A DNA stretch of 56,677 bases from a virus, in IMG/VR virus record IMGVR_UViG_3300001847_000386, positions 1 through 56,677 of that record; one strand, given 5' to 3'. This document shows positions 6,388 to 51,791 of this stretch, in pieces. Under the pieces are notes generated by a model. That model was given only the letters and a program-made list of their open reading frames with translations. It was not told where the DNA came from and did not search any database. Position 1 is the first letter of the stretch. Every line of letters begins with the position of its first letter. The position numbers and the translations under genes were made by a program.

Positions 6388-6390
6388 CAA

Positions 6391-7796: not shown

Positions 7797-7802
7797 TAAG
7801 TT

Positions 7803-8024
7803 ATGAACAAAAACATTTATGTAAAAGACGAATACAGAACAAATCCACTGTCTCTTATTCCAGGCGGTCACGAAGTCACTATCACTTACGAAGACGGATT
7901 TTCACAAACATACGATAAGGTTAAAAGTCCAAAAGCATTTGTATCTAAACTTAGAGACCACAGAAAGCGTGGAACGAAGATAATTAGAGTTGTTGTGGAT
8001 GGATCTTTATTTACAGAGTATTAA
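7803..8024 (+). CDS. Hypothetical protein, 73 aa
   Basis: Six bases after the upstream stop, with the same AATAAGTTATG start context. Contains GGHEVTITYEDGFSQTYDKVKSP, a beta-hairpin-like segment, then a basic stretch (KLRDHRKRGTK). Unknown family. Confidence 0.7.
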   Translation: MNKNIYVKDEYRTNPLSLIPGGHEVTITYEDGFSQTYDKVKSPKAFVSKLRDHRKRGTKIIRVVVDGSLFTEY

Positions 8025-8025
8025 C

Positions 8026-8035
8026 ATATTTATTA
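8026..8035 (+). promoter_or_regulatory. ATATTTATTA start-upstream element
   Basis: Ten-base element, 15 bases before the start at 8051. See the finding on this recurrent motif. Confidence 0.5.
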
Positions 8036-8050
8036 ATAAAAAAATTATTC

Positions 8051-9100
8051 ATGAAAGATTTTAATTTAAAGAAATTCTTATTAGATAATCCTTTAACTAA
8101 TAAAGAATTAAAGTCGGGTAAAATAAACGAAGCATTTGAAGGAGTGGGTGGTGTTTTATCATTACGCCCTGTTAATGAAGCTCCTATGCAACCAAAATAT
8201 TTTGATACTAATGAAGATCCTTGGGGATGGGATAAGCATGTAAAACAAATGAGAGACGATGAAGAAGGCAGACCAAATAAATGGATAGCTGATATTGATC
8301 GTTTGCAACCAAGACATGGTGATTGGATGGCTACATGGGAATATCCAGGAATAATTACTTGGTCTCATCCAGATATTGATAATGCAGTTGTTGTTGCTAC
8401 TCCAGGTTGGGATGGCCCAGGCACTCCAGTAGAATTTCAAAGCGGTGGTGGTTCTAGTCAAATGTTAAAAGTTCTAGATCAAGATCAATTTCCAACTATA
8501 AAAGATTATATCGCTGCAGTTGCTCCTTATCTTGATATGGTAGCTGATGCTAATGATGTGAATGTTGGAGGTTATGAAGATGCGCCTGAAGCAGAATTTC
8601 AAGGAGTACACGAAGCTCACTCTGATCTTTCACAAGATGGAAAAGATTTAGATATTAAACCAGTAATTCATACTGATGATATGAAAGAAGGTCTTCCAAA
8701 TATGAAAACTCTTTTTGTAATGGACTATAGTTCAGGAAAAGTATTTTCTAAAATGGTTCCAGCAGATATGCAATCAGAAGAGATAGAGAGTATGTTAGCT
8801 GATGAATATGGAATGCTTCCTAATGATATTTACTATATGGTTACTAATTCAAGTGAGGTAGAAGATCTTGATGATGCAAATATGATGGAAGGCAGTATGG
8901 TATTTGACAAAGGTTGGCAATATGATGATGATGAAGAAGATTTAGATTTAACTAGAATTGATGGTCTTATAGATCAAAGAGAGCTTGCAAAATATTCAGA
9001 AGCTGTTTTAGCAATTGCACAAGATTTACAAGATCATGGATTTGAAATATATGATATTAAAGGTTTCTTGAAATCACAACTTGATAAAATTATCATGTAG
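8051..9100 (+). CDS. Unknown acidic protein with variant targeting-type N-terminus, 349 aa
   Basis: Residues 1-29 (MKDFNLKKFLLDNPLTNKEL...KINEA) match the second N-terminal class in this genome, shared with the protein at 51438 (FNLxK[FY]L[LI][DE]NxLT), with an I-N-E cut-site candidate near residue 27 and V-N-E further on. The rest is very acidic, with stretches such as DDDEEDLDL near 297 and Trp-rich loops (DPWGWDKH, GKWQYD-like). No catalytic motif seen. A terminator follows 30 bases after the stop. Predicted to be a virion-internal protein by its N-terminus. Confidence 0.7.
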   Translation: MKDFNLKKFLLDNPLTNKELKSGKINEAFEGVGGVLSLRPVNEAPMQPKYFDTNEDPWGWDKHVKQMRDDEEGRPNKWIADIDRLQPRHGDWMATWEYPGIITWSHPDIDNAVVVATPGWDGPGTPVEFQSGGGSSQMLKVLDQDQFPTIKDYIAAVAPYLDMVADANDVNVGGYEDAPEAEFQGVHEAHSDLSQDGKDLDIKPVIHTDDMKEGLPNMKTLFVMDYSSGKVFSKMVPADMQSEEIESMLADEYGMLPNDIYYMVTNSSEVEDLDDANMMEGSMVFDKGWQYDDDEEDLDLTRIDGLIDQRELAKYSEAVLAIAQDLQDHGFEIYDIKGFLKSQLDKIIM

Positions 9101-9130
9101 TTAATAAAAAATAATATATGCTAAATAAAT

Positions 9131-9155
9131 AAGCCCCTTTATTGGGGCTTTTTAT
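9131..9155 (+). terminator. Rho-independent terminator
   Basis: Stem AAGCCCC/GGGGCTT with a 6-base loop followed by TTTAT. Ends the transcript of the gene at 8051. Confidence 0.85.
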
Positions 9156-9165
9156 ATTTTTCAAA

Positions 9166-9175
9166 ATATTTATTA
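9166..9175 (+). promoter_or_regulatory. ATATTTATTA element before the holin-like gene
   Basis: Same ten-base element, here 53 bases before the start at 9229 and directly after a terminator, a position that fits a promoter better than a translation signal. Confidence 0.55.
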
Positions 9176-9228
9176 TAGGTAATTAGTGCTTTTAAAAAGC
9201 ATTATTTTTAACTAAAAACAAATAAAAA

Positions 9229-9390
9229 ATGAAAAGAGAACAAATCATGGGTATTATCCGCCACACTTTAACTTTTATTGGTGGTATCCTAGTAATCAAA
9301 GGTGTAACTACAGAAGCTGCTAGCCAAGAAGCAATCGGAGCAGTAATGACCGCAGTTGGTGCTGTATGGTCAGTTATCAGTAACAAGTAA
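9229..9390 (+). CDS. Small holin-like membrane protein, 53 aa
   Basis: ATG at 9229, TAA at 9388-9390. Sequence MKREQIMGIIRHTLTFIGG... has a hydrophobic helix at about residues 10-22, a short polar turn (KGVTTEAASQEA), and a second hydrophobic helix at about 31-47, ending in SNK. Length and the pattern 'Q-x-x-G-x-x-R-H-x-L-T-x-x-G-G' match, from memory, the Pam3-gp28-type small phage holin family. Holins open the inner membrane at lysis. The gene has its own upstream element and is bounded by terminators on both sides, so its expression can be set separately. Confidence 0.72.
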   Translation: MKREQIMGIIRHTLTFIGGILVIKGVTTEAASQEAIGAVMTAVGAVWSVISNK

Positions 9391-9414
9391 GAAAAAATTG
9401 TTTATACTTCAAAT

Positions 9415-9441
9415 TTAAAGCCCCCTTTTTGGGGGTTTTTT
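9415..9441 (+). terminator. Rho-independent terminator after the holin-like gene
   Basis: Stem AAAGCCCCC/GGGGGTTTT with a 5-base T loop and a T run. Isolates the holin-like gene from the next one. Confidence 0.85.
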
Positions 9442-9467
9442 AGTATATTATAAATAAAAAATAATCT

Positions 9468-10640
9468 ATGAGCCTACTTACAATGACAGAGTATTACCCA
9501 GAATTTTTGCGCTATTATAATTTAGCAAAAATCCAACAAGAAGAGTGCAATTTAGGACTTATTCCACATGCGGAGTCCTCTATTCAAGATGAACTTATGA
9601 AGCATGTAGAACTATATGATGTGGTTGAGCGTAAATATGCTGGATTCTCTCAGATAGTGAATGATATATTTTATGGTTGGACTGAGGAGCATCCTTATTG
9701 GCAGAGAATGGAAGCCGGTTTAGCATCAGAACCAAGAAAAAAGATTGCTCCTTTATGGACTGGTAAAAAAGCCAGACTAAATACTGAGGTATGGTTCTTT
9801 TTATTTCTAGTTCATCGTCTTACGGGATCCGCTATTAACTATGCTAAGAAGCCTAGTGGTTATCATAATAGTATTTTATTTGATCTACATGAGTGTGATA
9901 CTATTCCTCAAATGGTTGAAAAAATAAAAAATCGTATTTCTCCATTCTATACTTCTGTCGGTTATCAAATTGCTGCGTTTCCAAAACCTGAGGGAAATTA
10001 TAAAAGAGGTGGTGATTATTTTATATGTGAACATGTACCTCAATTAGCAGTTGATGTATTAGCATTCTTAGAAAAAGGAGGAACTAAAAAAGACTTTAGA
10101 CAAGTTGGTGAGTTCATGTTTGCTTGGAATAAAGAGAGAGGGTTTAAAGTATTTAGATTTCAATACTCAGCATTTATTGCAGATGTTGCAGATTGGTTTC
10201 CAGAATATATAAATAAAGAGAGTCCTTTTTATTATGGTACAAATGCTATTGAGTGTTTAAATTACCTAGCTAAAAAATATAAAGGCATTCCACAAGAAGC
10301 ATTTTTAGATCAAATAACAAGAAAGATTTATGAAGATACAGGCGCATTTCCATATAATAGTGAGGATGTGACTTGTGATTTTATTAGATACGTAGAAAAT
10401 TATGTAAAACCAGGGGATGACTACAGACACTTAGATTATGATAATCTTTGGAATAGTTGCGGAATTAAAAATCATCCTTATGGTAGACAAAAAGCTATGT
10501 TAGATCTTGCACTAGTTCCAACATTTAAAGATATAACAGATCATCCATCAGATAATAAAATATTGAAATCAGTGGGATTGACAGAGATTGAATATAAAGA
10601 GAAGGTAAATGTACTCTATAATTCAGGTATTTTTTTATAG
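9468..10640 (+). CDS. Unknown protein, 390 aa
   Basis: Start context TTATAAATAAAAAATAATCTATGAG; the coding strand here carries TATAAATA at 9450-9457, the T4 late-promoter octamer. The protein is mostly helical and Trp/Tyr-rich (ITKIYEDTGAFPY-like end, HRLTGSAINYAKKPSGYHN near 121-139, GFKVFRFQYSAFIADVADWFPEY near 227). The length and helical character weakly recall phage nucleobase-modification proteins of the thymine-hypermodification type, but I see no motif that settles this, so no function is assigned. It has no targeting-type N-terminus. Confidence 0.75.
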   Translation: MSLLTMTEYYPEFLRYYNLAKIQQEECNLGLIPHAESSIQDELMKHVELYDVVERKYAGFSQIVNDIFYGWTEEHPYWQRMEAGLASEPRKKIAPLWTGKKARLNTEVWFFLFLVHRLTGSAINYAKKPSGYHNSILFDLHECDTIPQMVEKIKNRISPFYTSVGYQIAAFPKPEGNYKRGGDYFICEHVPQLAVDVLAFLEKGGTKKDFRQVGEFMFAWNKERGFKVFRFQYSAFIADVADWFPEYINKESPFYYGTNAIECLNYLAKKYKGIPQEAFLDQITRKIYEDTGAFPYNSEDVTCDFIRYVENYVKPGDDYRHLDYDNLWNSCGIKNHPYGRQKAMLDLALVPTFKDITDHPSDNKILKSVGLTEIEYKEKVNVLYNSGIFL

Positions 10641-10646
10641 TAGAAA

Positions 10647-10656
10647 ATATTTATTA
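10647..10656 (+). promoter_or_regulatory. ATATTTATTA start-upstream element
   Basis: Ends 2 bases before the ATG at 10659. If it is a -10-type box, the transcript would be leaderless. Confidence 0.5.
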
Positions 10657-10658
10657 AT

Positions 10659-11057
10659 ATGAAACTACTAGAATTGTTACTAGAAAATAATAATGTAAAA
10701 TTACAACCTATTACGCCAAATAGATTTGTTTATCATAAATCAAATCCAATATTTAGAGACTCAATATCAAAACAAGGCATAATTCCAAAAGGAAAAAGTG
10801 ATGCTTGGCTATCAAATACTCCAATTAGTGGTAAAGTAATATTTGCTACTAATAGTGACAATGAAAAAGATTGGTTTGATTCAATGTATGATGATGATGT
10901 CTATAGAATAGATACACGGAAAATAAATAATATATGGTATATAGATCCTAATTTTCAAATACAAAACTATAACAAACACATAATTACTTTTGATAAAATA
11001 CCAGTTAGTGCAATAACATTATTATATAAAGGAACAGGAGATTCAATAGAAATTTAG
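10659..11057 (+). CDS. ADP-ribosyltransferase-like protein with capsid-targeting-type N-terminus, 132 aa
   Basis: Residues 1-9 (MKLLELLLE) give a targeting-type peptide with an L-L-E site. The body reads like a compact ADP-ribosyltransferase-fold domain: VYHKSNPIFRDSISKQGIIP at 24-43 (the 'Y-H-x-S ... I-x-x-x-G-I-x-P' opening of DarT, KptA and related folds, His26), a strand VIFAT near 60-64, DVYRIDTRKI near 80-89, and a closing IITFDKIPVSAI near 108-119. The catalytic Glu is not certain. T4 packages the ADP-ribosyltransferase Alt with a targeting sequence, so a head-packaged transferase here would be a functional parallel. Fold assignment is by pattern only. Confidence 0.6.
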   Translation: MKLLELLLENNNVKLQPITPNRFVYHKSNPIFRDSISKQGIIPKGKSDAWLSNTPISGKVIFATNSDNEKDWFDSMYDDDVYRIDTRKINNIWYIDPNFQIQNYNKHIITFDKIPVSAITLLYKGTGDSIEI

Positions 11058-11067
11058 ATATTTATAA
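11058..11067 (+). promoter_or_regulatory. ATATTTATAA start-upstream element
   Basis: Ends 2 bases before the ATG at 11070, overlapping the end of the upstream gene's 3' side. Confidence 0.5.
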
Positions 11068-11069
11068 GT

Positions 11070-11627
11070 ATGAAATTAATGAACCTACTTTTAGAAGCTG
11101 AAGCTGAGAAGCAAGAAGCTGATATTATGGCTCAACTAAAGGGTCAAATGAATGATCTAGTTAAAAATATAGATACTACATTACAAAATCAATCTGAGGA
11201 ACAAAATGAGAGCTTATTAACTGCAGCAGGAATAGCGGTGGCAATGCCAGCAATTTTAGGTTTAGTATCTAAATTTGGAAAATCTGCCTCTTCAGTAATA
11301 AATAAAATAATGGGTAAAAAACCCACAGAGAAAGAACAAGAAGAAAATTGGTTTAATAAACTTGGTAAAATTGCAGATGATCTACATCATTTATATCAAG
11401 CTCCAATAGAAAAACTTATATCTAAATTTGTTAAAGATCCAACTAAAGCAAAAAAAGTATCTCATTTTTTATTCCATGTAATAGTTGCTATAATGCTTAT
11501 TGCATCAGGAGTTACAGCTGTAAAAGCTTTAAAATCAAAAGAGGTGTCTATAGCAACTTTAGAAACTGCTATTGCCACAATAAAAAGTGGTGAAATTAAA
11601 AAGTATATATCTAAATTATTAGTATAA
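11070..11627 (+). CDS. Membrane-active-type protein with capsid-targeting-type N-terminus, 185 aa
   Basis: Residues 1-9 (MKLMNLLLE) are the targeting-type peptide. An acidic, helical segment follows (about 10-48), then two hydrophobic segments: about 49-66 (LLTAAGIAVAMPAILGLV) and about 132-151 (FLFHVIVAIMLIASGVTAVK). A membrane-inserting protein carried inside the head could help DNA or protein passage through the host inner membrane; that is inference. Stop and next start overlap by one base (TAATG). Confidence 0.7.
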   Translation: MKLMNLLLEAEAEKQEADIMAQLKGQMNDLVKNIDTTLQNQSEEQNESLLTAAGIAVAMPAILGLVSKFGKSASSVINKIMGKKPTEKEQEENWFNKLGKIADDLHHLYQAPIEKLISKFVKDPTKAKKVSHFLFHVIVAIMLIASGVTAVKALKSKEVSIATLETAIATIKSGEIKKYISKLLV

Positions 11628-12433
11628 TGATCTGTTTAACAGATATATTATTTGAAGTACTAAAAGAAAAGCGCACTGGCGCAAAAAATAAAGCACCACA
11701 AGGAGTATTATTCTTGACATCTAAAAAAATATTAGTGGGAGATAATCACTTTGATCCTGTAGAATTATCTGAAGAATTATTTAATACTATTTTATCCGTT
11801 GGTAAAACATATGGTTATTATGGTGAAGGTATAGGTATAGAATATAACAAAGGAGTTATGAGTTCAGATATATATAAAGCTTTAAAAGACAGCGGTGCTA
11901 AATATAAAGGTTCTTGGGATGATAAAGTCAAAATACCTAAAGAAGAAAAATACGCGTATATAGCAACTTACTTTTCTAATCCCTCAGAAAACCATAGAGT
12001 GCCAACTTTAATGTCTAAAGTAAAAGACGGTGATACTATTTTTAGCCTGTTATCTAGAACATTCGATGACTATACTCAACCTGGCTTAAATTTAACTTCA
12101 GAAGACCTGAAGAGGTTCTTACAGGAAATGAGTGAAAAGGGTATTGACTTTCTGGAACTATCTAAGCAACCAGTAACAAAAGAAGCATTACAAGACTTCA
12201 CTGACAAGGGTGAAGCCTTAATGTGGCCAGATAACTGGGAAGAATATCCAAACAAAGCAGGTAAATTAGCTAGAAGAGAAACTATTATAAGAGATACATG
12301 GCTTATAGAAAAAGCACCATCAGGTATCTATTTTATAGGTTCTGGACATTTAAAAGACATTTCAAAAATGTCTAAAATAAAAATTATAGATGGAAGCAAA
12401 ATAGGAAGTAGATCTTCAGCTGATATAAAATAA
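11627..12433 (+). CDS. Unknown protein with capsid-targeting-type N-terminus, 268 aa
   Basis: N-terminus MICLTDILFEVLKEK closely resembles the peptides at 4639 and 4978 (xxLTDIL) with L-F-E at 8-10 and a second L-K-E at 12-14. The body is soluble, with GDNHFDPVELSEELF near 38-52, a Gly/Tyr-rich segment (YGYYGEGIGIEYNKG), and a C-terminal Trp/Pro region. No known motif. It is coupled to the upstream gene by a TAATG overlap. Confidence 0.7.
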   Translation: MICLTDILFEVLKEKRTGAKNKAPQGVLFLTSKKILVGDNHFDPVELSEELFNTILSVGKTYGYYGEGIGIEYNKGVMSSDIYKALKDSGAKYKGSWDDKVKIPKEEKYAYIATYFSNPSENHRVPTLMSKVKDGDTIFSLLSRTFDDYTQPGLNLTSEDLKRFLQEMSEKGIDFLELSKQPVTKEALQDFTDKGEALMWPDNWEEYPNKAGKLARRETIIRDTWLIEKAPSGIYFIGSGHLKDISKMSKIKIIDGSKIGSRSSADIK

Positions 12434-12466
12434 ACTATAATTAAATTAACAGATATAAATTATTAA

Positions 12467-12476
12467 ATATTTATTA
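12467..12476 (+). promoter_or_regulatory. ATATTTATTA start-upstream element
   Basis: Ten bases before the ATG at 12487, in a 53-base gap. Confidence 0.5.
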
Positions 12477-12490
12477 AAAAAACACAATGA
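12467..12490 (+). other. Typical Shine-Dalgarno-free start region
   Basis: Example of the common start context: an ATATTTATTA element, then A-rich sequence and ATG without any GGAGG. The same lack of Shine-Dalgarno holds for most genes here, a trait of Bacteroidetes and their phages. Confidence 0.5.
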
Positions 12491-13458
12491 AGAAAAACAT
12501 AGCGCTTTTAAAAATGATTCTTGAAAACATTAAAGAAGCAGAATTAGATACTCCAATAGGTAAAGTAGATACAGATATATTTAAAGGTAAATTATCTGCT
12601 GTAGATCCAGCTAAAGCAAAAGCTGCTGTAAAAGCAGGTAAAAAAGACGGATCTGAAAAAGACGATAAAGCAATCGCATCGAAAATTACAAAAAATTTCT
12701 CAGTTGCTGCATCTAGCTTAAAACCAGGACAAACAGAAGTTATTCCTGAAAAAGCTGCTGCAATTGCAATTGGCATGTTAAATTCAGGAAAAGTTGGAGG
12801 TCCATTAGGAGCTATCATTTCTGGAGATATGCATATCATGGATGGTCACCATCGTTGGGCAGCTACAGTATTAGTTAATCCTGGAGCAAGCGTTAGTGGT
12901 CTAAAAATTGATGTTCCTGGTGAAGCTTTAGTTGGTATTTTAAATGTATATACTAAAGGAGCCTTAGGAAGACAAAAAGGAAATCCTGGTAAAGGAAATG
13001 TAAAAGAATTTACTAAAGATAAAATAGCAGCTGTATTAGATGGCTATATGAAAAATGGATGCAAGATTGGTGTAGTAGACGATAAAGGTGGATACAGTGA
13101 AAAAGATATTGATGGAGAAGAGGTTAAAAAGATCTTAGGTAAAATGAAAGGAGCTAATGGAGATGCAAACAAAGGAAAAGATTTAATGTCTAGTAATGCA
13201 GATAAATTAAATAAACAAATTCCTAGTTGGGCACCACCAAGAGTTGATATGCCGGTAATTAATTCAGACGAATTGAATACTTTGGTTAAAAAATTAGAGA
13301 GTGGTGAATTTGATATTGTTGCTCCATACTCAAAAGATGTTAAAAATGCAAAAGCTCCAGAAGGAGGTGAAGAAGAAAAAACAGACGTAAAAGAATTTAG
13401 ACAATCGCTTCAAGAGGTACTCAGAATGAAAAAATTAGCAGGTATTAATAAGAAATAA
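12487..13458 (+). CDS. ParB/sulfiredoxin-like protein with capsid-targeting-type N-terminus, 323 aa
   Basis: The N-terminus MKKNIALLKMILENIKEAE has an amphipathic helix with I-L-E and I-K-E sites. A Lys/Ala-rich linker (about 35-75) leads to a domain with the motif IMDGHHRWAA at 117-126, the signature of ParB-like nucleotidase/nuclease and sulfiredoxin folds (CTP/ATP or nucleic-acid substrates). A Gly/Lys-rich middle and an acidic end (FRQSLQEVLRMKKLAG) follow. The active family member in phages is uncertain; the packaged location is inferred from the N-terminus. A terminator follows. Confidence 0.72.
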   Translation: MKKNIALLKMILENIKEAELDTPIGKVDTDIFKGKLSAVDPAKAKAAVKAGKKDGSEKDDKAIASKITKNFSVAASSLKPGQTEVIPEKAAAIAIGMLNSGKVGGPLGAIISGDMHIMDGHHRWAATVLVNPGASVSGLKIDVPGEALVGILNVYTKGALGRQKGNPGKGNVKEFTKDKIAAVLDGYMKNGCKIGVVDDKGGYSEKDIDGEEVKKILGKMKGANGDANKGKDLMSSNADKLNKQIPSWAPPRVDMPVINSDELNTLVKKLESGEFDIVAPYSKDVKNAKAPEGGEEEKTDVKEFRQSLQEVLRMKKLAGINKK

Positions 13459-34619: not shown

Positions 34620-35045
34620 TTATCCATTTTGAACTACTATAGTAGCTGTATCAGTTTGTGATGTGTTTATTATTTTGTAACTAAATTTTATTGTTATAGA
34701 ATTATAGTTTGGTTGACCAACCACTTTTAATTCAGTAACTTCTATATTAGGAAAATTTGATTCTATTTGTTTTGAAAGAGTATCCTCTAGATTAGAAATA
34801 GACTCTTGAGTTATTTGTTCAAATAATCTTGATCTTAATCCAGCCCCAAAAGAGGGATTAAAAGGTCTTTCTCTTTTATCTGTTAATAAATAGTTTATTA
34901 TATTAAATTTAGTTTGCTCTTTAGTAGTATATACTGAAGTAAATACAGATGGGGATGAAAATGGGATTTGTACTCCAATTGCAGTTGAAGGTTTTAAATC
35001 AAGAGGTGATATTTGTTTTAATCCGTATGCCATTTTATATTGCAC
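34620..35045 (-). CDS. 25: Baseplate wedge protein, T4 gp25-like, 141 aa
   Basis: Contains GVQIPFSSPSVFTSVYTTKE then NIINYLLTDKRERPFNPSFG and AGLRSRLFEQITQ, the gp25 'L.T..GERPF.P.FG..LR..LFE' signature of the gp25-like wedge family. Length matches T4 gp25 (132). It forms part of the inner baseplate wedge with gp6 and gp53. Overlaps the next gene by 11 bases. Confidence 0.95.
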   Translation of the reverse strand: MQYKMAYGLKQISPLDLKPSTAIGVQIPFSSPSVFTSVYTTKEQTKFNIINYLLTDKRERPFNPSFGAGLRSRLFEQITQESISNLEDTLSKQIESNFPNIEVTELKVVGQPNYNSITIKFSYKIINTSQTDTATIVVQNG

Positions 35046-35493
35046 CTTTTGCCATTAAATTTTTCATAAGACCTGAGTAATCTGGAACTTCATTTATTTG
35101 TACCATTGAAATATCAGAACTAGGTCTTGCACTTGATAACATTCCATTTATATCACCAACTGATGCCTCAGTGGGTTGAAAAAATGATGTTGGATTAATA
35201 TTATCTGTTGAAAAACTTAATGTTTCTATATCATCACTTCCCATTGATTGTGCTGTTTCATTTAACAAATCATTTAGAGGTGATGATTTTGAAAAAATCA
35301 TTTCAGGTTTTTTCTTATATGTTTCTGCTGTATTTAATGTTAAAGGAACTTGCGTTTTTTTCATTTCCTTTATTATATTTTCTTTACCAGCAGGTCTTTG
35401 TTGTATTTCTGATATAACTTTAGGTAGTTCTTGCCTTAAAGCTATTATAAGCTCTTCTCTAATAATTTTCCTAAGTAAGTCTATTTTTGCCAT
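35035..35493 (-). CDS. Hypothetical baseplate-region protein, 152 aa
   Basis: N-terminus MAKIDLLRKIIREELIIALR is an amphipathic helix, followed by a Pro/Lys-rich flexible region and a C-terminus ending SGLMKNLMAKGAI. Sits between the gp25-like and the 647-aa genes. The N-terminus only superficially resembles the targeting peptides. An ATATTTATAA element lies 3 bases before the start on the minus strand. Role unknown. Confidence 0.65.
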   Translation of the reverse strand: MAKIDLLRKIIREELIIALRQELPKVISEIQQRPAGKENIIKEMKKTQVPLTLNTAETYKKKPEMIFSKSSPLNDLLNETAQSMGSDDIETLSFSTDNINPTSFFQPTEASVGDINGMLSSARPSSDISMVQINEVPDYSGLMKNLMAKGAI

Positions 35494-43460: not shown

Positions 43461-44261
43461 ATGATTAAACTGTCTAAACTTTTATTGGAAGTAACATCAA
43501 GTCCAATAGCCATATTCTTAGCGGGATCGGCAGGAGCTGGGAAATCAACATTTAGAACCGAGTTTTTAGATCCTGTAGCAGATTTTACTGTATTAAATGT
43601 AGATGATGAATATGAACCACTACTTCAAAAAGCCGGTTTACCATTAGATTTTAGAAAATTTCAAGGTCCTGAGGATTTATCTGCGGCAGGAAGTGCAATG
43701 GCCCAGGCTCAAAAGATACATAGATCAAAATATGAGAAATCAAAAGTAGATATGTCTCATATTATTATAGACGGAACTGGTGGATCTTCTAGAGAAATAT
43801 TAAAAAAGAAAAAAGAACTAGAAGAGTTAGGATATAAAACTGCAATGGTGCTAATATTTGTACCACCAGATATATCTCTTAGTAGAAATATCAAAAGAGG
43901 TGATGAGGGTGGTAGAACTCTTATGCCGTCTATTATATTGAGAAGTTGGTCTAATATGTTTAGTAATATAGATTTGTATAAAAAAGAATTTGGAGATAGT
44001 TTTATATTATATAAAGCATATGATGAAAAAGATGTGGTATTTCCTAAATTTGATCCAACAGATCCTGAAGTAAGAAAACAATTTTTTGATCCATTCAAGG
44101 TAAAAGGTAAAGAAAAATCTCCTGAAGAGATGGCAAAAGGACTTCAAAAATTTAAAGATTTAAATAATCAAATAGCTATACAAATTAGCAAAATAAATGA
44201 TTTACATTTTGATGATCCGACTGAAATAAAAACAAAAATAAATAGATTGGTAAATGCGTGA
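43461..44261 (+). CDS. Zeta-type P-loop kinase with capsid-targeting-type N-terminus, 266 aa
   Basis: MIKLSKLLLEV is the targeting peptide with L-L-E at 8-10. A strand and Walker A follow (IAIFLAGSAGAGKST, G22-S29) and LNVDDEYEPLL near 46-56. IIIDGTGGSSREIL near 97-110 is the D-G-T segment of the zeta toxin and related small-molecule kinases. An acidic, helical C-terminus follows. Zeta-type kinases phosphorylate UDP-N-acetylglucosamine and can act as toxins, but phage relatives vary. The next gene starts 8 bases before this stop. Confidence 0.78.
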   Translation: MIKLSKLLLEVTSSPIAIFLAGSAGAGKSTFRTEFLDPVADFTVLNVDDEYEPLLQKAGLPLDFRKFQGPEDLSAAGSAMAQAQKIHRSKYEKSKVDMSHIIIDGTGGSSREILKKKKELEELGYKTAMVLIFVPPDISLSRNIKRGDEGGRTLMPSIILRSWSNMFSNIDLYKKEFGDSFILYKAYDEKDVVFPKFDPTDPEVRKQFFDPFKVKGKEKSPEEMAKGLQKFKDLNNQIAIQISKINDLHFDDPTEIKTKINRLVNA

Positions 44262-44844
44262 TTATAGTCAAATAGGTAAAATTATAATGCAGCAAATACT
44301 ATATGAAGTAGATGCTAATACAGGCCCATGTTTTTATCCTGGTAAATTTAAACCTCCACATAAAGGACATTTTGAGGCAGCAAAATATTTAGCTAGTCAA
44401 ACCTATGTAAATAAAGTTTATGTTATTATAAGTAATGTAACAAAATTTGGTATAACTCCTGATGATAGTGTGCTTATTTGGAATGATTATTTAGAAGCAG
44501 AACCAAATTCAAAAATTGTTATACAAAAATCAACTGAATCAACTCCTATAAAAGATATTTTTAGATACGCATCTCAAAATCCAGACTTAAAAAGTATATA
44601 TGTGGGTGCAGCAAAAGAAGAGTCTGATGAATTAGGATATTTTGATAAATTAAAAGAGAAATTTCCTGGGGTTATTAAACCAATTGAAATACCAGATCAA
44701 TTTGGTAGAATTTCAGCAACACAAATGAGGCAGGCAATAAAAGATGGAAACTTTGATGAATTTTCCAAGTTTGTTCCTGTTGCAGCATATAATAAAGGAA
44801 TAACAAAAGATGTTTTCGGATTGTTAACAAAGATTATAAAATAA
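44254..44844 (+). CDS. HIGH-family nucleotidyltransferase with targeting-type N-terminus, 196 aa
   Basis: Core motif YPGKFKPPHKGHFEAAKYLA at 28-47 with H36-x-G-H39 (HxGH), plus a C-terminal ISATQMRQAI segment that is the ISxTxxR nucleotide-binding motif. Enzymes of this fold transfer nucleotides, for example in NAD or CoA synthesis (NMNAT, PPAT) or cytidylyl transfer. The N-terminus contains MQQILYEVD at 12-20 with a possible L-Y-E site; the internal ATG at 44287 would start exactly there. Sits between a kinase and a HAD/protease gene, all with targeting-like peptides. Confidence 0.8.
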   Translation: MRDYSQIGKIIMQQILYEVDANTGPCFYPGKFKPPHKGHFEAAKYLASQTYVNKVYVIISNVTKFGITPDDSVLIWNDYLEAEPNSKIVIQKSTESTPIKDIFRYASQNPDLKSIYVGAAKEESDELGYFDKLKEKFPGVIKPIEIPDQFGRISATQMRQAIKDGNFDEFSKFVPVAAYNKGITKDVFGLLTKIIK

Positions 44845-44846
44845 AA

Positions 44847-45740
44847 ATGACAATAGAACAAAAAATAGGTATTGTAAAAGATTTTATAAAATTTTGTGAA
44901 TACAGTTTACAGATTGAAAATCTACCTAAAATTGAATTTACAAAAGATAAAGACTGGGTATTAAGTATACACAGTTTTGGTCAATATAAAAATGACTCTA
45001 AAAGTTTAAAAGTCTATATAGGAAATAGAAATCTTGCTGATACATTAAGAACATTATCACACGAATTAGTTCACCATAGACAAAATGAGTTAGGCCTATT
45101 ACATCCAGATTCAGGAAAAGCTGGATCTGATATTGAGAATCAAGCAAATTCAATATCTGGAGTAATTATGAGAAATTATGGTAAAAAAAATGAATTGATA
45201 TATGAATCAAAACTTCATAAAATACTAAATGAAGTAATATCAAATACATATACCATTTATTCTGATATGGATGGAGTTTTAACTGATTTTGATGGTCAAT
45301 TTGAACATTATTATGGTATGACTCCTAGAGAATATACAAATGAGAAAGGTCCAGTAATATTTAAAAAAGCTGTTGATGATATTGGAGTGACTTTTTGGTC
45401 AAAAATGCCACTTTTCCCTGGAGCTTTAGATCTATGGTCTTATATATCTCAATACAATCCTATTATTTTATCAAGTCCTAGTAGTTTTAAATACGCTGAA
45501 AAAGGTAAATTAATCTGGATAAAAGAAAACTTAAGACCAGGTCCTAGCAATATTATTTTTAAACAAACAGGACATAAAGAAGATGCTATAAGTAATTTAC
45601 CAGAGTCTGAAATTAAAAAATCTATATTAATAGATGATTATTACAGAAATATAATGCCTTGGAAAGCGATTGGTGCAATTGGAATTGTACATAAAAGTGC
45701 TGAAAATACTATAAATATTTTACAAAAATTTAGATTATGA
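44847..45740 (+). CDS. Two-domain protein: HExxH metalloprotease-like plus HAD phosphatase-like, with an internal targeting-type peptide, 297 aa
   Basis: N-terminal part: H72-E-L-V-H76 zinc motif (LSHELVHHRQNELG) with a possible third ligand E97 in ENQAN, typical of small metallopeptidases. Around 117-130 the chain reads LIYESKLHKILNEV, resembling the N-terminal peptides of other genes, with an L-N-E site at 127-129. Directly after this comes a HAD motif I (SDMDGVLTDFDG, D140-x-D142), a long cap, and later SILIDDYYRNI. The HAD family includes 5'-nucleotidases. I infer that the prohead protease may split the chain into two proteins. Coupled to the next gene by a 4-base overlap. Confidence 0.75.
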   Translation: MTIEQKIGIVKDFIKFCEYSLQIENLPKIEFTKDKDWVLSIHSFGQYKNDSKSLKVYIGNRNLADTLRTLSHELVHHRQNELGLLHPDSGKAGSDIENQANSISGVIMRNYGKKNELIYESKLHKILNEVISNTYTIYSDMDGVLTDFDGQFEHYYGMTPREYTNEKGPVIFKKAVDDIGVTFWSKMPLFPGALDLWSYISQYNPIILSSPSSFKYAEKGKLIWIKENLRPGPSNIIFKQTGHKEDAISNLPESEIKKSILIDDYYRNIMPWKAIGAIGIVHKSAENTINILQKFRL

Positions 45741-46153
45741 TTAAGTTATTAAACATACTAAAAGAATCAGCTTATCCATTTTCAGAACATGATGTTCTAT
45801 ATGATGATGAGGATAATAGTTTATTAGTAGTTGAATATACTTTTAATACAAAACAAAATAAATACAAAGTCATTTTTGATTCTAAACAAAAAGAAAAAGA
45901 ATTTGAACTATCATTTGGAGTAGATACTGGAGAATTGAATAAAATAGATACATTTCAAATGACAGGAGAAGGAGATGCTAGAAATATTTTAGAAACAATA
46001 GCTGAAATAATTAATGATTTTTACTATCAATATGAAGAAGAAGTAGATAAGATTATTATTGATGGCACGAATGAAAAACGTAGGAGAATATATAAATTAT
46101 TTTTCCCTAAATTTATTAATCCTGAAGCCTTAAAAGTAGTACAAATAATATAA
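45737..46153 (+). CDS. Unknown protein with capsid-targeting-type N-terminus, 138 aa
   Basis: MIKLLNILKES at 1-11 with an L-K-E site. The body includes a beta-rich N-terminal half (VEYTFNTKQNKYKVIFDSK) and a helical half ending with GTNEKRRRIYKLFFPKF, a C-terminal pattern that I recall from uncharacterised T4-like phage proteins. No catalytic motif. Confidence 0.7.
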   Translation: MIKLLNILKESAYPFSEHDVLYDDEDNSLLVVEYTFNTKQNKYKVIFDSKQKEKEFELSFGVDTGELNKIDTFQMTGEGDARNILETIAEIINDFYYQYEEEVDKIIIDGTNEKRRRIYKLFFPKFINPEALKVVQII

Positions 46154-46172
46154 ATAAATTAAAATAATTGTT

Positions 46173-46742
46173 ATGAGCCAATCAAATTTAAAAAAAGAGT
46201 TTTCGAAAAGTACAGTACAAAGAATGAGGAATATTATTACAGGTAATGCTGGTGATAGAACTCAAATTCAATCAGGTTGGGAAAAGAAAAACACAGATTA
46301 TTCAGAAGGAGACATTTGGGAAGAAAATGGAAAACAGTGGACTATAAAGAATGGTATTAAGCAGACAATTACTAAATTAGATGGTATAAAAAGATTAGCT
46401 GTATTGCCTTTAACATGTCCTTGTTGTAATAAACCTATGAAAATACATGATTTGAATAAAAAAATGTATACTCTACATAACATGTGTTTTGATTGTGTTA
46501 TTGACATGGAAACAAAAATTAGAATAGATGGAAAGTGGGATGAGTACGTTTCTAAACAAAGAAATGCAAGTAAAAATGCTTCTTTAGAAGATTTTGAAAA
46601 TGCAGTTGAGTCTTGGATGAATCAAAATGATTCTTTTATAACTGAAAATGGAGATATCGAGAGCTGGAGTAAAGTAGATAAGACTAAAATATATAACGAA
46701 TTAAAATCAAATATAGAAAATTTAAAAAAGATTCAAATTTAA
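46173..46742 (+). CDS. Zinc-ribbon hypothetical protein, 189 aa
   Basis: A Cys cluster CPCCNKPMKIH near 80-90 and a later MCFDCV near 104 form a likely four-Cys zinc ribbon. Other parts: GDIWEENGKQWTIKNGIKQT near 46-65 and a helical acidic C-terminus. No targeting-type N-terminus. Function unknown; this type recurs in T4-like phages. Confidence 0.72.
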   Translation: MSQSNLKKEFSKSTVQRMRNIITGNAGDRTQIQSGWEKKNTDYSEGDIWEENGKQWTIKNGIKQTITKLDGIKRLAVLPLTCPCCNKPMKIHDLNKKMYTLHNMCFDCVIDMETKIRIDGKWDEYVSKQRNASKNASLEDFENAVESWMNQNDSFITENGDIESWSKVDKTKIYNELKSNIENLKKIQI

Positions 46743-46743
46743 A

Positions 46744-46753
46744 ATATTTATTA
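46744..46753 (+). promoter_or_regulatory. ATATTTATTA start-upstream element
   Basis: Ten bases before the ATG at 46764. Confidence 0.5.
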
Positions 46754-46763
46754 AAAACAAATT

Positions 46764-47399
46764 ATGCCGTATTCTATAGACTATAAAAATAAGTGCGTAT
46801 ATAAGAAAATTAAAAAAGTAAAAGACGGTAAGAAGATAACAGTAAGAGGAGAAAAAGTAGGATGTACAAAAGGAAGTCTAGATGATTATATAGCGGCATT
46901 ACAAATACATGCAGAAAACAAGATGAAAACTAAAAAAACTATAAAAGAAGCTGCTGACATGTCTTTATCAAATGTATATGCAGTACAAAATCCTTATTCA
47001 GGATGCCAAGTAACTGATCTTGTTAAACCAGTTGATCCATTAGTAGGTCTTCAACAAATACAACCTGATCAAATTCACTCAGTTTATGCTGACCAACCAA
47101 TGGCTCAGTCAGTAGCTGATAATCTATTTCAAGAGTATTCTAAAAAACAAGCCGCTTTAGAAGAGAAAAAAGAAGAAACTAGTAAAAAAGTTAAAACTGT
47201 ACTAGATACTCTAGAGAAAAAGAGAAAAGAGTATATGGATATGGCTAAAGAAGATCCAAAAAATGCTTCTAAACATAGAGAACAAATAGCATTAATAACA
47301 TCTAAGATAGATGATTTAATGACTAAGTTAGAAAAAATAGAAAAATCAAAAAAAGAAATAGAAAAAGAATCTGATAAAGACAAAAAAGATAAAAAATAA
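46764..47399 (+). CDS. Coiled-coil protein, possible head-internal component, 211 aa
   Basis: Basic N-terminal region with two Cys (SIDYKNKCVYKKIKK ... GEKVGCTK), then at about 53-64 the segment KMKTKKTIKEAA with an I-K-E site, and a long Lys/Glu-rich coiled coil (about 120-211) ending KDKKDKK. The stop and the next ATG overlap by one base. The coiled coil suggests an elongated or scaffold-like role; unproven. Confidence 0.65.
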   Translation: MPYSIDYKNKCVYKKIKKVKDGKKITVRGEKVGCTKGSLDDYIAALQIHAENKMKTKKTIKEAADMSLSNVYAVQNPYSGCQVTDLVKPVDPLVGLQQIQPDQIHSVYADQPMAQSVADNLFQEYSKKQAALEEKKEETSKKVKTVLDTLEKKRKEYMDMAKEDPKNASKHREQIALITSKIDDLMTKLEKIEKSKKEIEKESDKDKKDKK

Positions 47400-47770
47400 T
47401 GGAACAATACGCAAAATTTATATCAACATTATTTTCTAGTCGTACTCAAGCTCATATATTCCATTTACAGACAACTGGAGAAGGATCATATGCTGCTCAT
47501 AAAGCTCTAAATGAGTACTATGATGAAATTGTAGAATTAGCTGATGGACTTGTAGAAAGTTTTCAAGGTAGATATGGAATTATCTATGGATATACAAGCC
47601 CAGCACAGTTTAAAGAAGATAATCAGCCATTAATATATTTTGAAGCACTATGTCAATATGTAGAAAGTGTAAGAAAAACACTACCTCAAGATAGCTATAT
47701 TCAAAATGAAATAGACAATGTAGTTGCTTTAATAGAATCTACTAAATATAAACTTAAGTTTTTACATTAA
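47399..47770 (+). CDS. Four-helix, ferritin-like phage protein (DUF5856 type), 123 aa
   Basis: The sequence ISTLFSSRTQAHIFHLQT, then a SYAAHKALNEYYDEIVELAD segment and GLVESFQGRYG, matches in my memory the DUF5856 family of phage proteins, thought to be Dps/ferritin-like four-helix bundles. The His/Glu/Asp positions in AHIFHLQ and HKALNEYYDE could bind iron. The real activity is not known. Confidence 0.65.
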   Translation: MEQYAKFISTLFSSRTQAHIFHLQTTGEGSYAAHKALNEYYDEIVELADGLVESFQGRYGIIYGYTSPAQFKEDNQPLIYFEALCQYVESVRKTLPQDSYIQNEIDNVVALIESTKYKLKFLH

Positions 47771-47773
47771 TAT

Positions 47774-48100
47774 ATGCATAAACATGAATTAAATGAGGGT
47801 GAATTCTGTCCGATGTGCTTAAAAGAGTATATTTTAGAGCACTATAATAAATTAGAAGAGGCAGAATATAAAGGTAGAACAGTGCAGTTAGGAAAACCTA
47901 TGGCTGGTGATGTAAAAAAATTCAAAGTGTATGTTAAAAACAATAAAGGGAATGTGGTTAAAGTTAATTTCGGCCAAAAAGGTGTTAAAATTAAAAAAAG
48001 CAATCCTAAAAGGAGAAAAAGCTTCAGAGCAAGACATCATTGTGATACAAATCCAGGACCAAGATGGAAAGCACGTTATTGGTCTTGTAGAAAATGGTAA
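47774..48100 (+). CDS. Conserved T4-like phage protein, basic, 108 aa
   Basis: LGKPMAGDVKKFKVYVKNNK near 39-58 followed by FGQKGVKIKK and then RRKSFRARHHCDTNPGPRWK with the end ARYWSCRKW match a widespread conserved protein of T4-like marine phages; its function is not known to me. The N-terminus has a CPMC pair. The C-terminus is strongly basic, consistent with DNA or head association. Confidence 0.78.
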   Translation: MHKHELNEGEFCPMCLKEYILEHYNKLEEAEYKGRTVQLGKPMAGDVKKFKVYVKNNKGNVVKVNFGQKGVKIKKSNPKRRKSFRARHHCDTNPGPRWKARYWSCRKW

Positions 48101-48102
48101 AT

Positions 48103-48399
48103 ATGAAAAAAATGTATAAATTAATTGATCTTTTAGAGATAGGAGATTATACTGCGGCTACAACAACCCAAACAGATGTTAATCCAGAGACTGGTAAAAT
48201 AACTTGGGATGTTAAATACAAACCAGATTTTAATGTTATATTTAAAAAACTTGATGATATTATCCATAATATACAAGATGCAGAAGATGATGAACATTTA
48301 TCTGATCCAGTTATAAATCAAAGTATTAAAGCTCTAAAAGCTGCTAAAAAAGCAATGCAAGATAGAGTATTAGAAAAATATCCAGAATTTTTAAAATAA
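48103..48399 (+). CDS. Unknown protein with possible targeting-type N-terminus, 98 aa
   Basis: I chose ATG 48103 over the in-frame 48094 ATG, because the latter lies inside the upstream gene and the later start gives MKKMYKLIDLLEIGDY, with L-L-E and a helical opening like the targeting class. The rest is acidic and helical (KKLDDIIHNIQDAEDDEHLS). No motif recognised. Confidence 0.6.
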   Translation: MKKMYKLIDLLEIGDYTAATTTQTDVNPETGKITWDVKYKPDFNVIFKKLDDIIHNIQDAEDDEHLSDPVINQSIKALKAAKKAMQDRVLEKYPEFLK

Positions 48400-48403
48400 A
48401 AAA

Positions 48404-49099
48404 ATGATAAAATTAAAACATTTACTCAACGAAGTTTCTTATGATAAATCAGGATTAAAAAATCCAAAGCTGGCTGATAGAGATAAAGACAATAAAATCT
48501 CTTCTTGGGAGAAAAAAGTTGGTCAAAATATAGAAAAAAATATAGATGAGTCAATCCCTGAGGATCAGTATAATATTGGAATGAAAAAGTATAGTGTAAC
48601 AAAACCTAAATTATCACAAAATGAAACTGAAAAAATAAAAGGTGGTGATGGTAAAGGTTGTTGGAAAGGATATAGATATGCTGGCACAGAAAATGGAAAA
48701 GATAAGTGTATTCGCATAAAAGAAGCAGAAGAAACATGTCAATGTGGTGCTAAAATGGAAAATAAATTGTGTACAGAGTGCGGATATATGCAAGAAGGCA
48801 TTGATGTATTAGGAAAACCATCTAGCGATCATGAGGCTTCAATGGCAAAAGCGGAATTAAGAGATATGATTGAAAATTCTCAAGATATTTACGAAATGAT
48901 TGAAGTAGGAACTGAATTACCTGCTTGGATTAGTTCATATATAACTTTAGCATCCGATTATATGCATTCTGTTAAAGAATATATGGCAGAAAAAACAGCT
49001 GAAATGGATTTAGAAGCGCCAGATGATGAAGATAGTTATGATTATGATCAAGAAGATTATGATGATTATAGTGATAGCGAGGAGGATTTTGATCGTTAA
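48404..49099 (+). CDS. Unknown multi-motif protein with capsid-targeting-type N-terminus, 231 aa
   Basis: MIKLKHLLNEV with an L-N-E site at 8-10. Then a calcium-loop-like DRDKDNKISSWE near 26-37, a GKGCWKGYRYAGTENGKDKC segment near 84-103 known from marine phage proteins, a zinc-ribbon CQCGAKMENKLCTECGY near 114-130, then a helical segment AELRDMIENSQDIYEMIEVG (conserved in T4-like phage virion proteins), and a strongly acidic Tyr/Asp-rich end. Appears to be a string of small phage modules behind a targeting peptide. Confidence 0.72.
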   Translation: MIKLKHLLNEVSYDKSGLKNPKLADRDKDNKISSWEKKVGQNIEKNIDESIPEDQYNIGMKKYSVTKPKLSQNETEKIKGGDGKGCWKGYRYAGTENGKDKCIRIKEAEETCQCGAKMENKLCTECGYMQEGIDVLGKPSSDHEASMAKAELRDMIENSQDIYEMIEVGTELPAWISSYITLASDYMHSVKEYMAEKTAEMDLEAPDDEDSYDYDQEDYDDYSDSEEDFDR

Positions 49100-49116
49100 T
49101 ATTAGAATATAAAATT

Positions 49117-51426
49117 ATGAATAATTTAGAAATATTAAAATTTTTATTGACAGAGGAAGAGGCCGATCGAATGGAACCAGCCCCAAAAACATTTGAGGAT
49201 GATCCAATGCATTTTATTTTAAACAAATATGTAAGTTTAAAAGAGATTTTAATTGAATTAATGTCTGAAAATTTTGAAGAATATTTAACTGGAATTTATA
49301 TTATAGCAGATAAACCTACAGAATTTAAAATAGTTTTGCATAATGGTCAATATTTCTTTTTAACATTCATGGGAGAGGCTTACGAAGCCACAGTTGCAGG
49401 CAAAAGATATTTTTTATTAACTACTGGTGAGAAGCAGAGATGCATGCTAGCTATTAAAAAGTTATTAAGATGGGGAAGCCCTCTTAAAACTAAAGGAGCT
49501 GAAGGTGCAGAGCAATCTGGTACAGAAGGTGGAGAGACTCCTGAAACACCACCAGCTGAAAGTTCAGAAACGGGAGGAGAAGAAACATCAGGAGGTGAAG
49601 AAGAAAAATTAGCAGAATCAAAATTAATAGATTTAAATATATTAGCTGAAGTTATAAAAAAATCTGATTCAACAGCTTTTCATAATTGGTATGAAACTAT
49701 AGACGCTACTAACATAACTCCATTTTTAGAAACTCCACCAATAGTTGAAGCACTAATAGATAAAAAAGTAACTGCACAAAATTTAATATCAACAGTATTA
49801 GGAAATCCATCTTATGATTGGAATCCAGTAGCAGTAGAAAGAATAAAAGAATTACAAAAAATAGTTAATAAAGATAAAAAAAGCGTTGATTTTATAAATA
49901 ATAGTTATTTAATGGGGAAAGAGGATTCATCTCCTATAGCTAATTCAAAAAATAATTTAAGATCATTAAATAATAATAAAACTATTAGTTCATTTATACA
50001 TGGAAAAATAAAAGATTTTTATAAAATTATTGAAGCAGCTGATAAAAATAAATCAGCAAATAAAGTATTTACAGCAGACGTAGTAGTATTTTGGGGACCT
50101 GTTCCCAATGATCCATTATCTGATTCAAAAATAGTGGATGCTATTAAAAAATCAGTAAATAATCCAAAAATAAAAAAAGGAACAACATCAGTTGTAGATT
50201 TGGGAAATGGAATATCTATGGCTTGCGTTAGTTTAAAAGCCAACACAGGAAGAATCGGAAAATTAACAAAGTATTTTGGTGGAGCATATGGTGTAGCAAC
50301 TGAAAGCTATATTCACGAAAAATCCGAAATCACAGAAAGTTTAATTAATGATTTTATAGAAAAATTAAAAAATTCCTCAGTAGGAAAAACTGTAATATCA
50401 TTATATAATAAAGCAAAATCTTTTTTTGATGATTTAGTTAATAGCATTAAAACAATATTTTCTAAAAATAACCAAAATGTAAAAGATTGGGAAAAAGCTA
50501 ATGAAGAGTTTTCTAAATTAGAAAATGAATTTAATCAAGGAGACTTACAAGAAGCAGACTCTTCAAATATTATATGTACTACTTGTCATCGTGATGTTGT
50601 AAAATCAATAAAACCATATTTGGACTCAGCAATTAGTGGGACTGCATTAGATGATTTTTTCTCTTTTATGGAAAAATATAGTAAGGGTTCATATTTAAAA
50701 ACTAGATTTGATAATGGAAGAAACATTTTTAGTAGTGAAGCAAAAAAACAATTAAAAATAGTAGAAGATAAAATTTTAAAAGGTAAAGAGTCTTCAAATA
50801 CTCCGCCAAAAAAAGGCAGATGTAGTGTAATTGTAGATTCAAAAGGATCTCCAATATCTTTTACAAGAGATGAAATTAAAAACTTATTATTTAATTATTC
50901 AAATGCATTATCACTAACTCTTTTAGACAGAATGTTTAAAGATGTACTAAAAAATGTGAAAATAAAAGATGCTCAAAAAATGAGGGATTCTTTATTACAA
51001 TTATCAGTAACTATTTCTGCAGAAGCAACTTATGGAAAATCTGGAAATTTACCATTAGTTAAATATACAGGTACTAGTTTAAAAAATTATGGTAAAAAAG
51101 AAGAGTACATAGAAAAAACAAAAAAAGATTTAGGGTCAATGATAAAATCAACAGAAACAAAATCTCAAGTTCCAATAATAGGTCTTAGGATAGAGCCATC
51201 TCAAGGAAAATCATCTGCTTCAGGTATTAAACCGTATTATTATGCAATGACTATGTATACATTATCGTCAATAAATCCTTCTGAAACTGGCGCTACAACA
51301 TTAAAGGATCTTAATTATACACAAGTAGCATTTAAGTGTAATAGTGGATCAGATTTTGCTTTTGTGGCAGAAGGAGATTCTATAATTAATGGAGAAAGTT
51401 TATCAAAAGTTTTTATAAATAGATAA
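49117..51426 (+). CDS. Large unknown protein with N-terminal and internal targeting-type peptides, 769 aa
   Basis: MNNLEILKFLLTEEE shows a targeting-type start with L-T-E. Residues about 130-165 are a Glu/Gly/Thr-rich flexible linker (EGAEQSGTEGGETPETPP-like). Directly after it comes KLIDLNILAEVIKKS at 169-183, which again looks like the N-terminal peptides, with an L-A-E site at 176-178. A long helical and mixed C-terminal region with a Cys-x-x-Cys (ICTTCHRD near 488) follows. A protease cut at both sites would release a domain of about 590 residues. Function unknown. Confidence 0.7.
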   Translation: MNNLEILKFLLTEEEADRMEPAPKTFEDDPMHFILNKYVSLKEILIELMSENFEEYLTGIYIIADKPTEFKIVLHNGQYFFLTFMGEAYEATVAGKRYFLLTTGEKQRCMLAIKKLLRWGSPLKTKGAEGAEQSGTEGGETPETPPAESSETGGEETSGGEEEKLAESKLIDLNILAEVIKKSDSTAFHNWYETIDATNITPFLETPPIVEALIDKKVTAQNLISTVLGNPSYDWNPVAVERIKELQKIVNKDKKSVDFINNSYLMGKEDSSPIANSKNNLRSLNNNKTISSFIHGKIKDFYKIIEAADKNKSANKVFTADVVVFWGPVPNDPLSDSKIVDAIKKSVNNPKIKKGTTSVVDLGNGISMACVSLKANTGRIGKLTKYFGGAYGVATESYIHEKSEITESLINDFIEKLKNSSVGKTVISLYNKAKSFFDDLVNSIKTIFSKNNQNVKDWEKANEEFSKLENEFNQGDLQEADSSNIICTTCHRDVVKSIKPYLDSAISGTALDDFFSFMEKYSKGSYLKTRFDNGRNIFSSEAKKQLKIVEDKILKGKESSNTPPKKGRCSVIVDSKGSPISFTRDEIKNLLFNYSNALSLTLLDRMFKDVLKNVKIKDAQKMRDSLLQLSVTISAEATYGKSGNLPLVKYTGTSLKNYGKKEEYIEKTKKDLGSMIKSTETKSQVPIIGLRIEPSQGKSSASGIKPYYYAMTMYTLSSINPSETGATTLKDLNYTQVAFKCNSGSDFAFVAEGDSIINGESLSKVFINR

Positions 51427-51437
51427 AATAATATTGT

Positions 51438-51791
51438 ATGTCATTTAATTTACAAAAATATTTAATAGAAAACAGTTTAACTTTAACTGGTAAAAGAAGA
51501 CTATCAGAAGATGTAGATCCTGATGAAACACCAGAACCTACAAAAGCTGATATGAAGCAGACTGATAAAGAGATGCGTGATCTTCAAAAAAACAAAAAAG
51601 AATTAGCTCAATTACAAGCTAAAGTGAAAGATGTAATAATGAAATTTACAAAAGATACACCTAAAGGAAAAGAACTAACTGACGTAGAAGGTTACAAAAA
51701 AGCAATAGGTGATATTCCAAATAAAATTAAACAATTAAAAAAGAAAATAGATGCAGTCGAAAATCCAAAAGTCGATGATAGTGAAGATTAA
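51438..51791 (+). CDS. Coiled-coil protein with variant targeting-type N-terminus, 117 aa
   Basis: MSFNLQKYLIENSLTLTGKR resembles the N-terminus of the 8051 protein (FNLxK[FY]L[LI][DE]NxLT), with L-I-E at 9-11 and L-S-E at about 22-24. A Lys/Glu-rich helix (about 35-110) follows. Possibly a head-internal or scaffolding-related protein. Overlaps the next gene by 17 bases. Confidence 0.65.
   Translation: MSFNLQKYLIENSLTLTGKRRLSEDVDPDETPEPTKADMKQTDKEMRDLQKNKKELAQLQAKVKDVIMKFTKDTPKGKELTDVEGYKKAIGDIPNKIKQLKKKIDAVENPKVDDSED

Follow-up and report, generated by a model that had tools for sequence, protein, structure and literature searches.

The capsid-targeting sequence (CTS) of phage T4 is a ten-residue peptide in which positions 4 and 7 serve targeting and positions 8 and 10 serve processing, with cleavage by gp21 after L/I-x-E (PMC9026906). 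In phiKZ and SPN3US, the prohead protease cuts head cargo after x-x-E, at several sites per protein (PMC5694885). CTS-tagged cargo, processing by gp21 and injected polyvalent proteins carrying multiple enzymes are each already known. Our literature search found no description of internal CTSs or of effector polyproteins processed by a prohead protease, and no report of a targeting/cleavage peptide kept between two enzymes whose modules are separately tagged in sister phages; this absence is no proof of novelty.

The window, by which we mean the whole stretch of DNA analysed (56,677 nt, positions 1 to 56,677 of IMG/VR record IMGVR_UViG_3300001847_000386), contains a real open reading frame on its plus strand at 44847-45740, encoding a fused protein of 297 aa, here called P0001. 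Full-length relatives are present in many IMG/VR contigs (L001-L011, L019 and others; L numbers denote related loci). Residues 1-120 (44847-45206, +) form a metallopeptidase-like domain, putatively of the zincin, minigluzincin-like type, with a HELVH motif at residues 72-76 (45060-45074, +) and a conserved IYE at its end. Residues 130-297 (45234-45737, +) are identified by sequence profile and fold as a HAD 5'(3')-deoxyribonucleotidase domain of predicted enzymatic activity, with the DxD motif at residues 140-142 (45264-45272, +). Between the two lies an internal CTS-like peptide, SKLHKILNE (residues 121-129; 45207-45233, +), with a predicted prohead-protease cut after E129 and a possible second one after E120. 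The initial annotation had reported HELVH at 72-76, a peptide at 117-130 (LIYESKLHKILNEV) and D140-x-D142 in the 297-aa protein, and all three were located as claimed; from V130, the HAD part reads VISNTYTIYSDMDGVL.

The placement of the peptide between a metalloprotease-like and a HAD-like domain also held in the structural model. The alignment for AlphaFold2 (40 relatives) was built from window and related-locus proteins only, with rows from annotated phage records left out. Both domains were modelled with confidence, and the lowest confidence fell exactly on residues 121-130 (block mean 50, with residues 127-129 below 50), which separate the two modelled domains. Given this low confidence and a pTM of 0.58 for the model, the two domains are connected by a loose linker, helical in part and without a fixed position.

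Thirteen of the 58 window proteins fit the pattern phi-x-x-phi-[LI]-x-E with the Glu at residue 9-22, twelve of them with the Glu at 9-18. Training on 41 N-terminal peptides, P0001 excluded, yielded a position-specific score by which E129 ranked first among the 844 internal Glu sites of these 58 proteins, at 12.8 bits; clear N-terminal CTSs scored 9.7-19.7. The peptide ESKLHKILNE/V (a slash marks the predicted cut) matches the register of MIRLTDILNE/V, with L/I-x-E and hydrophobic residues at positions 4 and 7 of a ten-residue peptide, and E120 sits in the register of the start Met of a stand-alone CTS. The score test and the homologues described below rule out chance resemblance. Of the segment 117-130 that had been likened to the N-terminal peptides of neighbouring genes, the geometry and score bear out approximately S121-E129/V130. 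The first four residues, LIYE (117-120), are instead where the metallo domain finishes in a conserved C-terminus, since its stand-alone relatives often stop at IYE (...NPRIYE followed by a stop codon), and the CTS-like unit therefore spans approximately S121-E129/V130. Unlike the T4 CTS, which is N-terminal, the peptide is internal in P0001; it is N-terminal in homologues of the HAD part.

The HAD domain matches phrog_2643 (5'-3' deoxyribonucleotidase, E=2.4e-22), human cytosolic 5'(3')-deoxyribonucleotidase by Foldseek (2i7d, E=2.6e-5) and 4mum in a PDB profile search (E=4e-5); its Pfam NT5C score of 14.1 bits is below the cut-off of 24.8. Among 51 stand-alone HAD relatives, 48 carry [LI]xE just ahead of the fold. 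L153, for example, reads MIKLTDILNE/IKTNYTIYCDMDG where the window reads SKLHKILNE/VISNTYTIYSDMDG. Stand-alone HADs start with the peptide (L153, MIKLTDILNEIKTNYTIYCDMDG; L087, MIKLLDILKEAEEQQYKIYCDMDG, MIKLLDILKE/AEEQQYKIYCDMDG), as does that of an isolate, Flavobacterium phage immuto (MKKVMGNLADLLLEES), whose HAD gene is in the syntenic position, following the genes for exonuclease and NMN adenylyltransferase. Immuto, with Flavobacterium sp. LMO8 as its laboratory host, is the closest isolate that has the modules, and the mature N-terminus of its HAD is predicted to lie directly behind LLLE or LLLEE. Six HADs of other phages (Cr30, RHph_N34, phiXF1, XacN1, CcrRogue and Atu_ph07) begin at the catalytic strand without the peptide, which is therefore a module added to the fold from outside. 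A tree of the HADs places the fused proteins within the stand-alone ones that bear a CTS: most form a main clade, and L009 lies near L153. We did not adopt a single fusion event, as there are two in the tree, yet an AU test does not reject one (p=0.20). These comparisons strongly support the reading that the LNE/CTS peptide at the junction stems from the N-terminus of a HAD gene.

Another way to obtain a CTS-tagged HAD from the P0001 gene would be an internal start at L117. Its codon is TTG and would give MIYESKLHKILNE followed by V, but relatives have TTA, CTT, ACT, CAC or ATA at this position. Since the start-like codon is not conserved, we rejected this reading and give it almost no credence.

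The metallo domain matches no Pfam family, the known polyvalent metallopeptidase families included, and P0001 had no Pfam match at E<1. H72, E73, H76, H77 and E97 are invariant across 35 relatives (HExxHH plus Glu97), and Glu97 is presumably the third metal ligand. The domain is modelled as a compact HExxHH domain (pLDDT 92.7). Its best structural neighbours are the minigluzincins abylysin and jannalysin and the IrrE/CapP-type zincins, with weak E-values of 0.025 and above (Foldseek to abylysin 4jiu, E=0.025, probability 1.0). When the metallo alignment was searched as a profile against solved structures, all matches had E>=0.2 and were disregarded.

Like the HAD domain, the metallo domain occurs as separate genes, many with an N-terminal CTS of their own (L013, MLKYKQYLKEQ; L088, MKKFREYLKEQ; L241, MKLKLLLEQ), and the proteins so tagged terminate at IYE or shortly beyond. 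The initial annotation had proposed that a HAD gene with its own targeting peptide was fused behind a protease-like domain, and had named separate copies of the two domains in related phages as a check; these genes and the HAD genes starting at the peptide supply both. N- and C-terminal CTSs occurred together in none of 74 single-metallo proteins (Fisher P=8.5e-11; an I-P-E that begins L115 by chance was manually excluded), a tally that is phylogenetically clumped into only two or three independent contrasts on the tree and is suggestive only; we dropped it as a proof of exclusivity. The metallo-only genes L028-L045 (e.g. L042:1655-2062), in the same genomic place, carry a CTS-like tail past IYE without a HAD domain (IYESESLKLGNILKEIKRK followed by a stop codon). 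This tail could be a targeting tag at the C-terminus or what is left of a HAD that was lost.

A HExxH...E domain with a zincin-like fold adjoins the linker, and the N-terminal zincin might itself cut it, as has been proposed for polyvalent proteins with metallopeptidase domains (PMC5512222). We consider such self-processing highly improbable, given the stand-alone metallo genes that have their own CTS and no fused partner, and a junction motif that is of the S77 protease type and recurs at the N-terminal sites of proteins that have no zincin.

Among the fused proteins, 18 of 24 distinct linkers have [LI]xE after IYE, whereas shuffled linkers would give 7.4 (P~1e-6, uncorrected for shared ancestry). 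Fused relatives without the peptide, which the initial annotation had counted as evidence against its reading, do exist: three of the 24 distinct linkers (L027, L004 and L009, the last also in identical copies) have no [LIM]xE after IYE. The linkers of L002, L003 and L026 have only MAE/S. All six retain IYE, which itself fits L/I-x-E and, judged by this motif, could be a second cut site. Because the site is weakened or lost among the closest relatives, it is not strictly required, unless IYE/S serves there. In a sister clade of 13, the codons of LK[QE]IYE change almost only synonymously and neighbouring codons vary freely.

This pattern bears on whether the peptide has a function in the fused protein at all. 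It could be a decaying relic of the HAD N-terminus, a mere linker in a protein that does its work inside the infected host and forms no part of the virion. That the nearest relatives (L002, L003, L026, L027 and L004) have weakened or lost it, the lack of any other CTS within the fused protein and the service that nucleotidases can render to ordinary phage nucleotide metabolism would all fit such a relic. We nevertheless think it quite unlikely: [LI]xE is kept in most of the distinct linkers, change in the sister clade is nearly synonymous only, the gene sits in a CTS-tagged run upstream of the terminase and portal genes, and the metallo-only L028-L045 keep their CTS-like C-terminal tail without a HAD domain.

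If the peptide does target the fusion to the head, the Glu site could still go unused, with the two domains staying joined and being injected as one bifunctional protein. The selection on LK[QE]IYE in the sister clade and the flexible linker at the site speak against this, as does a junction to a further gene in L032, described below, where [LI]xE is likewise preserved in the homologous place. The linkers of L009, L027 and L004 that lack [LIM]xE are in its favour, and transfer without cutting is possible for polyvalent proteins that contain metallopeptidase domains (PMC5512222). On balance, an uncut bifunctional protein appears unlikely.

In L032, a homologue of the next gene of the window (45737-46153, +; CTS MIKLLNILKE/S and DUF6934) is fused behind the HAD domain, with 62% identity over 130 aa. 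INE/ISYPSSKHDV of L032 aligns exactly over LKE/SAYPFSEHDV of the window gene (MIKLLNILKE/SAYPFSEHDV). Where the metallo domain is fused to a ParB-like or LYHFT (ART-like) domain, the junction contains LxE, IxE or MxE. Ahead of the LYHFT (ART-like) domain, LxE/xKQ[VI]G[TN]LYHFT was seen in four fusions and ISE/RKQLGTVYHFT at an N-terminus (L083, L194, L208, L078, L143).

Some relatives are larger, with three to six domains (L032, L089, L133, L147 and L277), and their sequences make them look like polyproteins. The 795-aa protein of L277 (L277:270-2657) has the order NMNAT ... KLNE/N ... SINE/N, metallo domain, SILNE/A, zinc ribbon, QLNE/K, HAD, with a middle domain after NMNAT; its contig, in a metagenome-assembled bacterial bin, is probably phage. 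The proteins of L133, L147 and L089 and a 907-aa protein of immuto, an NMNAT-metallo fusion with a predicted cut at TLAE/A, resemble this layout of four or more modules. In 10 larger fusions, [LI]xE occurs 1.83 times per 100 aa outside recognised domains and 0.69 times inside (2.7 times, P=4.6e-5), whereas Glu density is equal (8.4 outside and 8.3 inside); this test, like that on the linkers, uses related sequences. We used these 10 fusions instead of the M-HAD enrichment (P=5e-28), which includes the invariant IYE and related rows.

The P0001 gene lies within one of two runs of CTS-tagged genes in the window (4639-13458 and 43461-51791), upstream of the terminase and portal genes. Members of the runs include genes for a DHH phosphoesterase (4978), an RNA 2'-phosphotransferase-like protein (10659), a ParB-like protein (12487), a kinase (43461), an NMNAT-like protein (44254) and the DUF6934 protein (45737), among others, and from their sequences they look like a large set of virion-borne enzymes. 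The P-loop kinase (zeta-toxin-like; 43461-44261, +) has the N-terminal CTS MIKLSKLLLE/V. The nucleotidyltransferase of the NMN adenylyltransferase type (44254-44844, +) has ...IIMQQILYE/V, and this module is fused to the metallo domain in relatives. Another neighbour (48404-49099, +) begins MIKLKHLLNE/V. A 769-aa protein (49117-51426, +) has an N-terminal CTS-like peptide and an internal LIDLNILAE/V at E178, and may be a second polyprotein of the window. The neighbouring cargo (NMN adenylyltransferase-like, kinase, DHH phosphoesterase and RNA 2'-phosphotransferase-like proteins) suggests that infection opens with nucleotide or NAD chemistry. A tail-region protein (35035-35493, -) also contains several CTS-like sites (E13, E29, E79 and E135), which is unexpected beside baseplate genes.

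Maturation of one polyprotein into two injected enzymes by a prohead protease, the second idea of the initial annotation, needs such a protease, and one is present in the same phage. The window ends inside the portal gene, but a contig identical to it over 12,891 b around the P0001 gene and over the last 1,163 b of the window (100%) runs on into the core genes. Just past the end of the window, this contig encodes a 217-aa Peptidase_S77 (L187:1137-1787, -; PF03420, E=3.9e-22; phrog_207 head maturation protease, E=4e-49), by these matches a prohead protease of the T4 gp21 type. It has LLIE near its own N-terminus, as T4 gp21 has LIE-9 (PMC9026906).

Fusion and polyprotein had been offered as alternatives; the evidence supports both together, the cleavage being the predicted part. 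We think it likely that P0001 is a fusion with a kept CTS that is packaged through this internal CTS and cut after LNE129, perhaps also after IYE120, so that two enzymes are injected. In its origin, a small metallopeptidase-like gene was followed in frame by a HAD deoxyribonucleotidase gene with a CTS, and this ten-residue CTS was kept at the junction. The comparisons above show the fusion, where the peptide came from, its geometry and its retention, and that the protease is present. For targeting from an internal position, cleavage and injection, we infer the following course. P0001 would be made alongside the other CTS cargo, and its internal CTS helix would most likely dock the whole chain on the prohead core. 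The S77 protease would then cut after LNE129, and perhaps also after IYE120, so that the head would contain the metallo domain (about 14-15 kDa) and the HAD enzyme (19 kDa) as separate products, both of which would enter the host with the DNA. The calculated masses are 14.9 and 19.2 kDa for a cut after E129, with 13.8 kDa for the metallo domain if the cut is after E120, and 34.1 kDa for the uncut protein.

The same may apply more widely, and here we see the chances as about even: effector polyproteins would be processed by the prohead protease throughout this large group of T4-like phages from aquatic habitats. CTS-tagged genes for NMN adenylyltransferase, metallopeptidase, deoxyribonucleotidase, ART-like, ParB-like and DUF6934 proteins would have been strung together in frame repeatedly, each joint keeping a targeting/cleavage peptide. 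Their product would enter the head as a single chain and be separated there into the individual enzymes ahead of injection. If so, the CTS/gp21 system would extend from the trimming of N-terminal tags to the maturation of multi-enzyme polyproteins, a logic comparable to that of RNA-virus polyproteins but in a tailed dsDNA phage. It would also provide a simple sequence rule by which a CTS, either N-terminal or at a junction, predicts virion-carried enzymes in uncultured T4-like phages. It further points to enzymes of nucleotide and NAD chemistry that reach the host as soon as infection begins, and we speculate that these could act against defences based on nucleotides or NAD.

The HAD part of P0001 is like the 5'(3')-deoxyribonucleotidases (NT5C, phrog_2643) in fold and in the DxDG and DD motifs, with the human cytosolic and mitochondrial enzymes as best matches. 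The metallo domain appears to share a small HExxH fold with the minigluzincins (abylysin, jannalysin and selecase) and ImmA/IrrE-type zincins, its best Foldseek matches, but differs in having no sequence match to them. The junction peptide is like the gp21-processed CTSs of T4 (IPI-IPIII and Alt) in its ten-residue geometry, with hydrophobic residues at 4 and 7, L/I at 8 and E at 10, and the system is also alike in its enzyme cargo and in an S77 protease encoded by the same phage. T4 CTSs act N-terminally, however, whereas the P0001 peptide lies inside a two-enzyme chain whose presence in the virion and cleavage are predicted from sequence. In phiKZ and SPN3US, long N-terminal propeptides are removed, whereas the cut predicted in P0001 parts two folded enzymes. 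Polyvalent proteins (Iyer et al. 2017, PMC5512222) likewise combine unrelated enzymatic domains, one of them zincin-like, in one predicted injected polypeptide; P0001 differs from them in that each of its modules also occurs as a separate CTS-tagged gene and that the junctions carry gp21-type sites.
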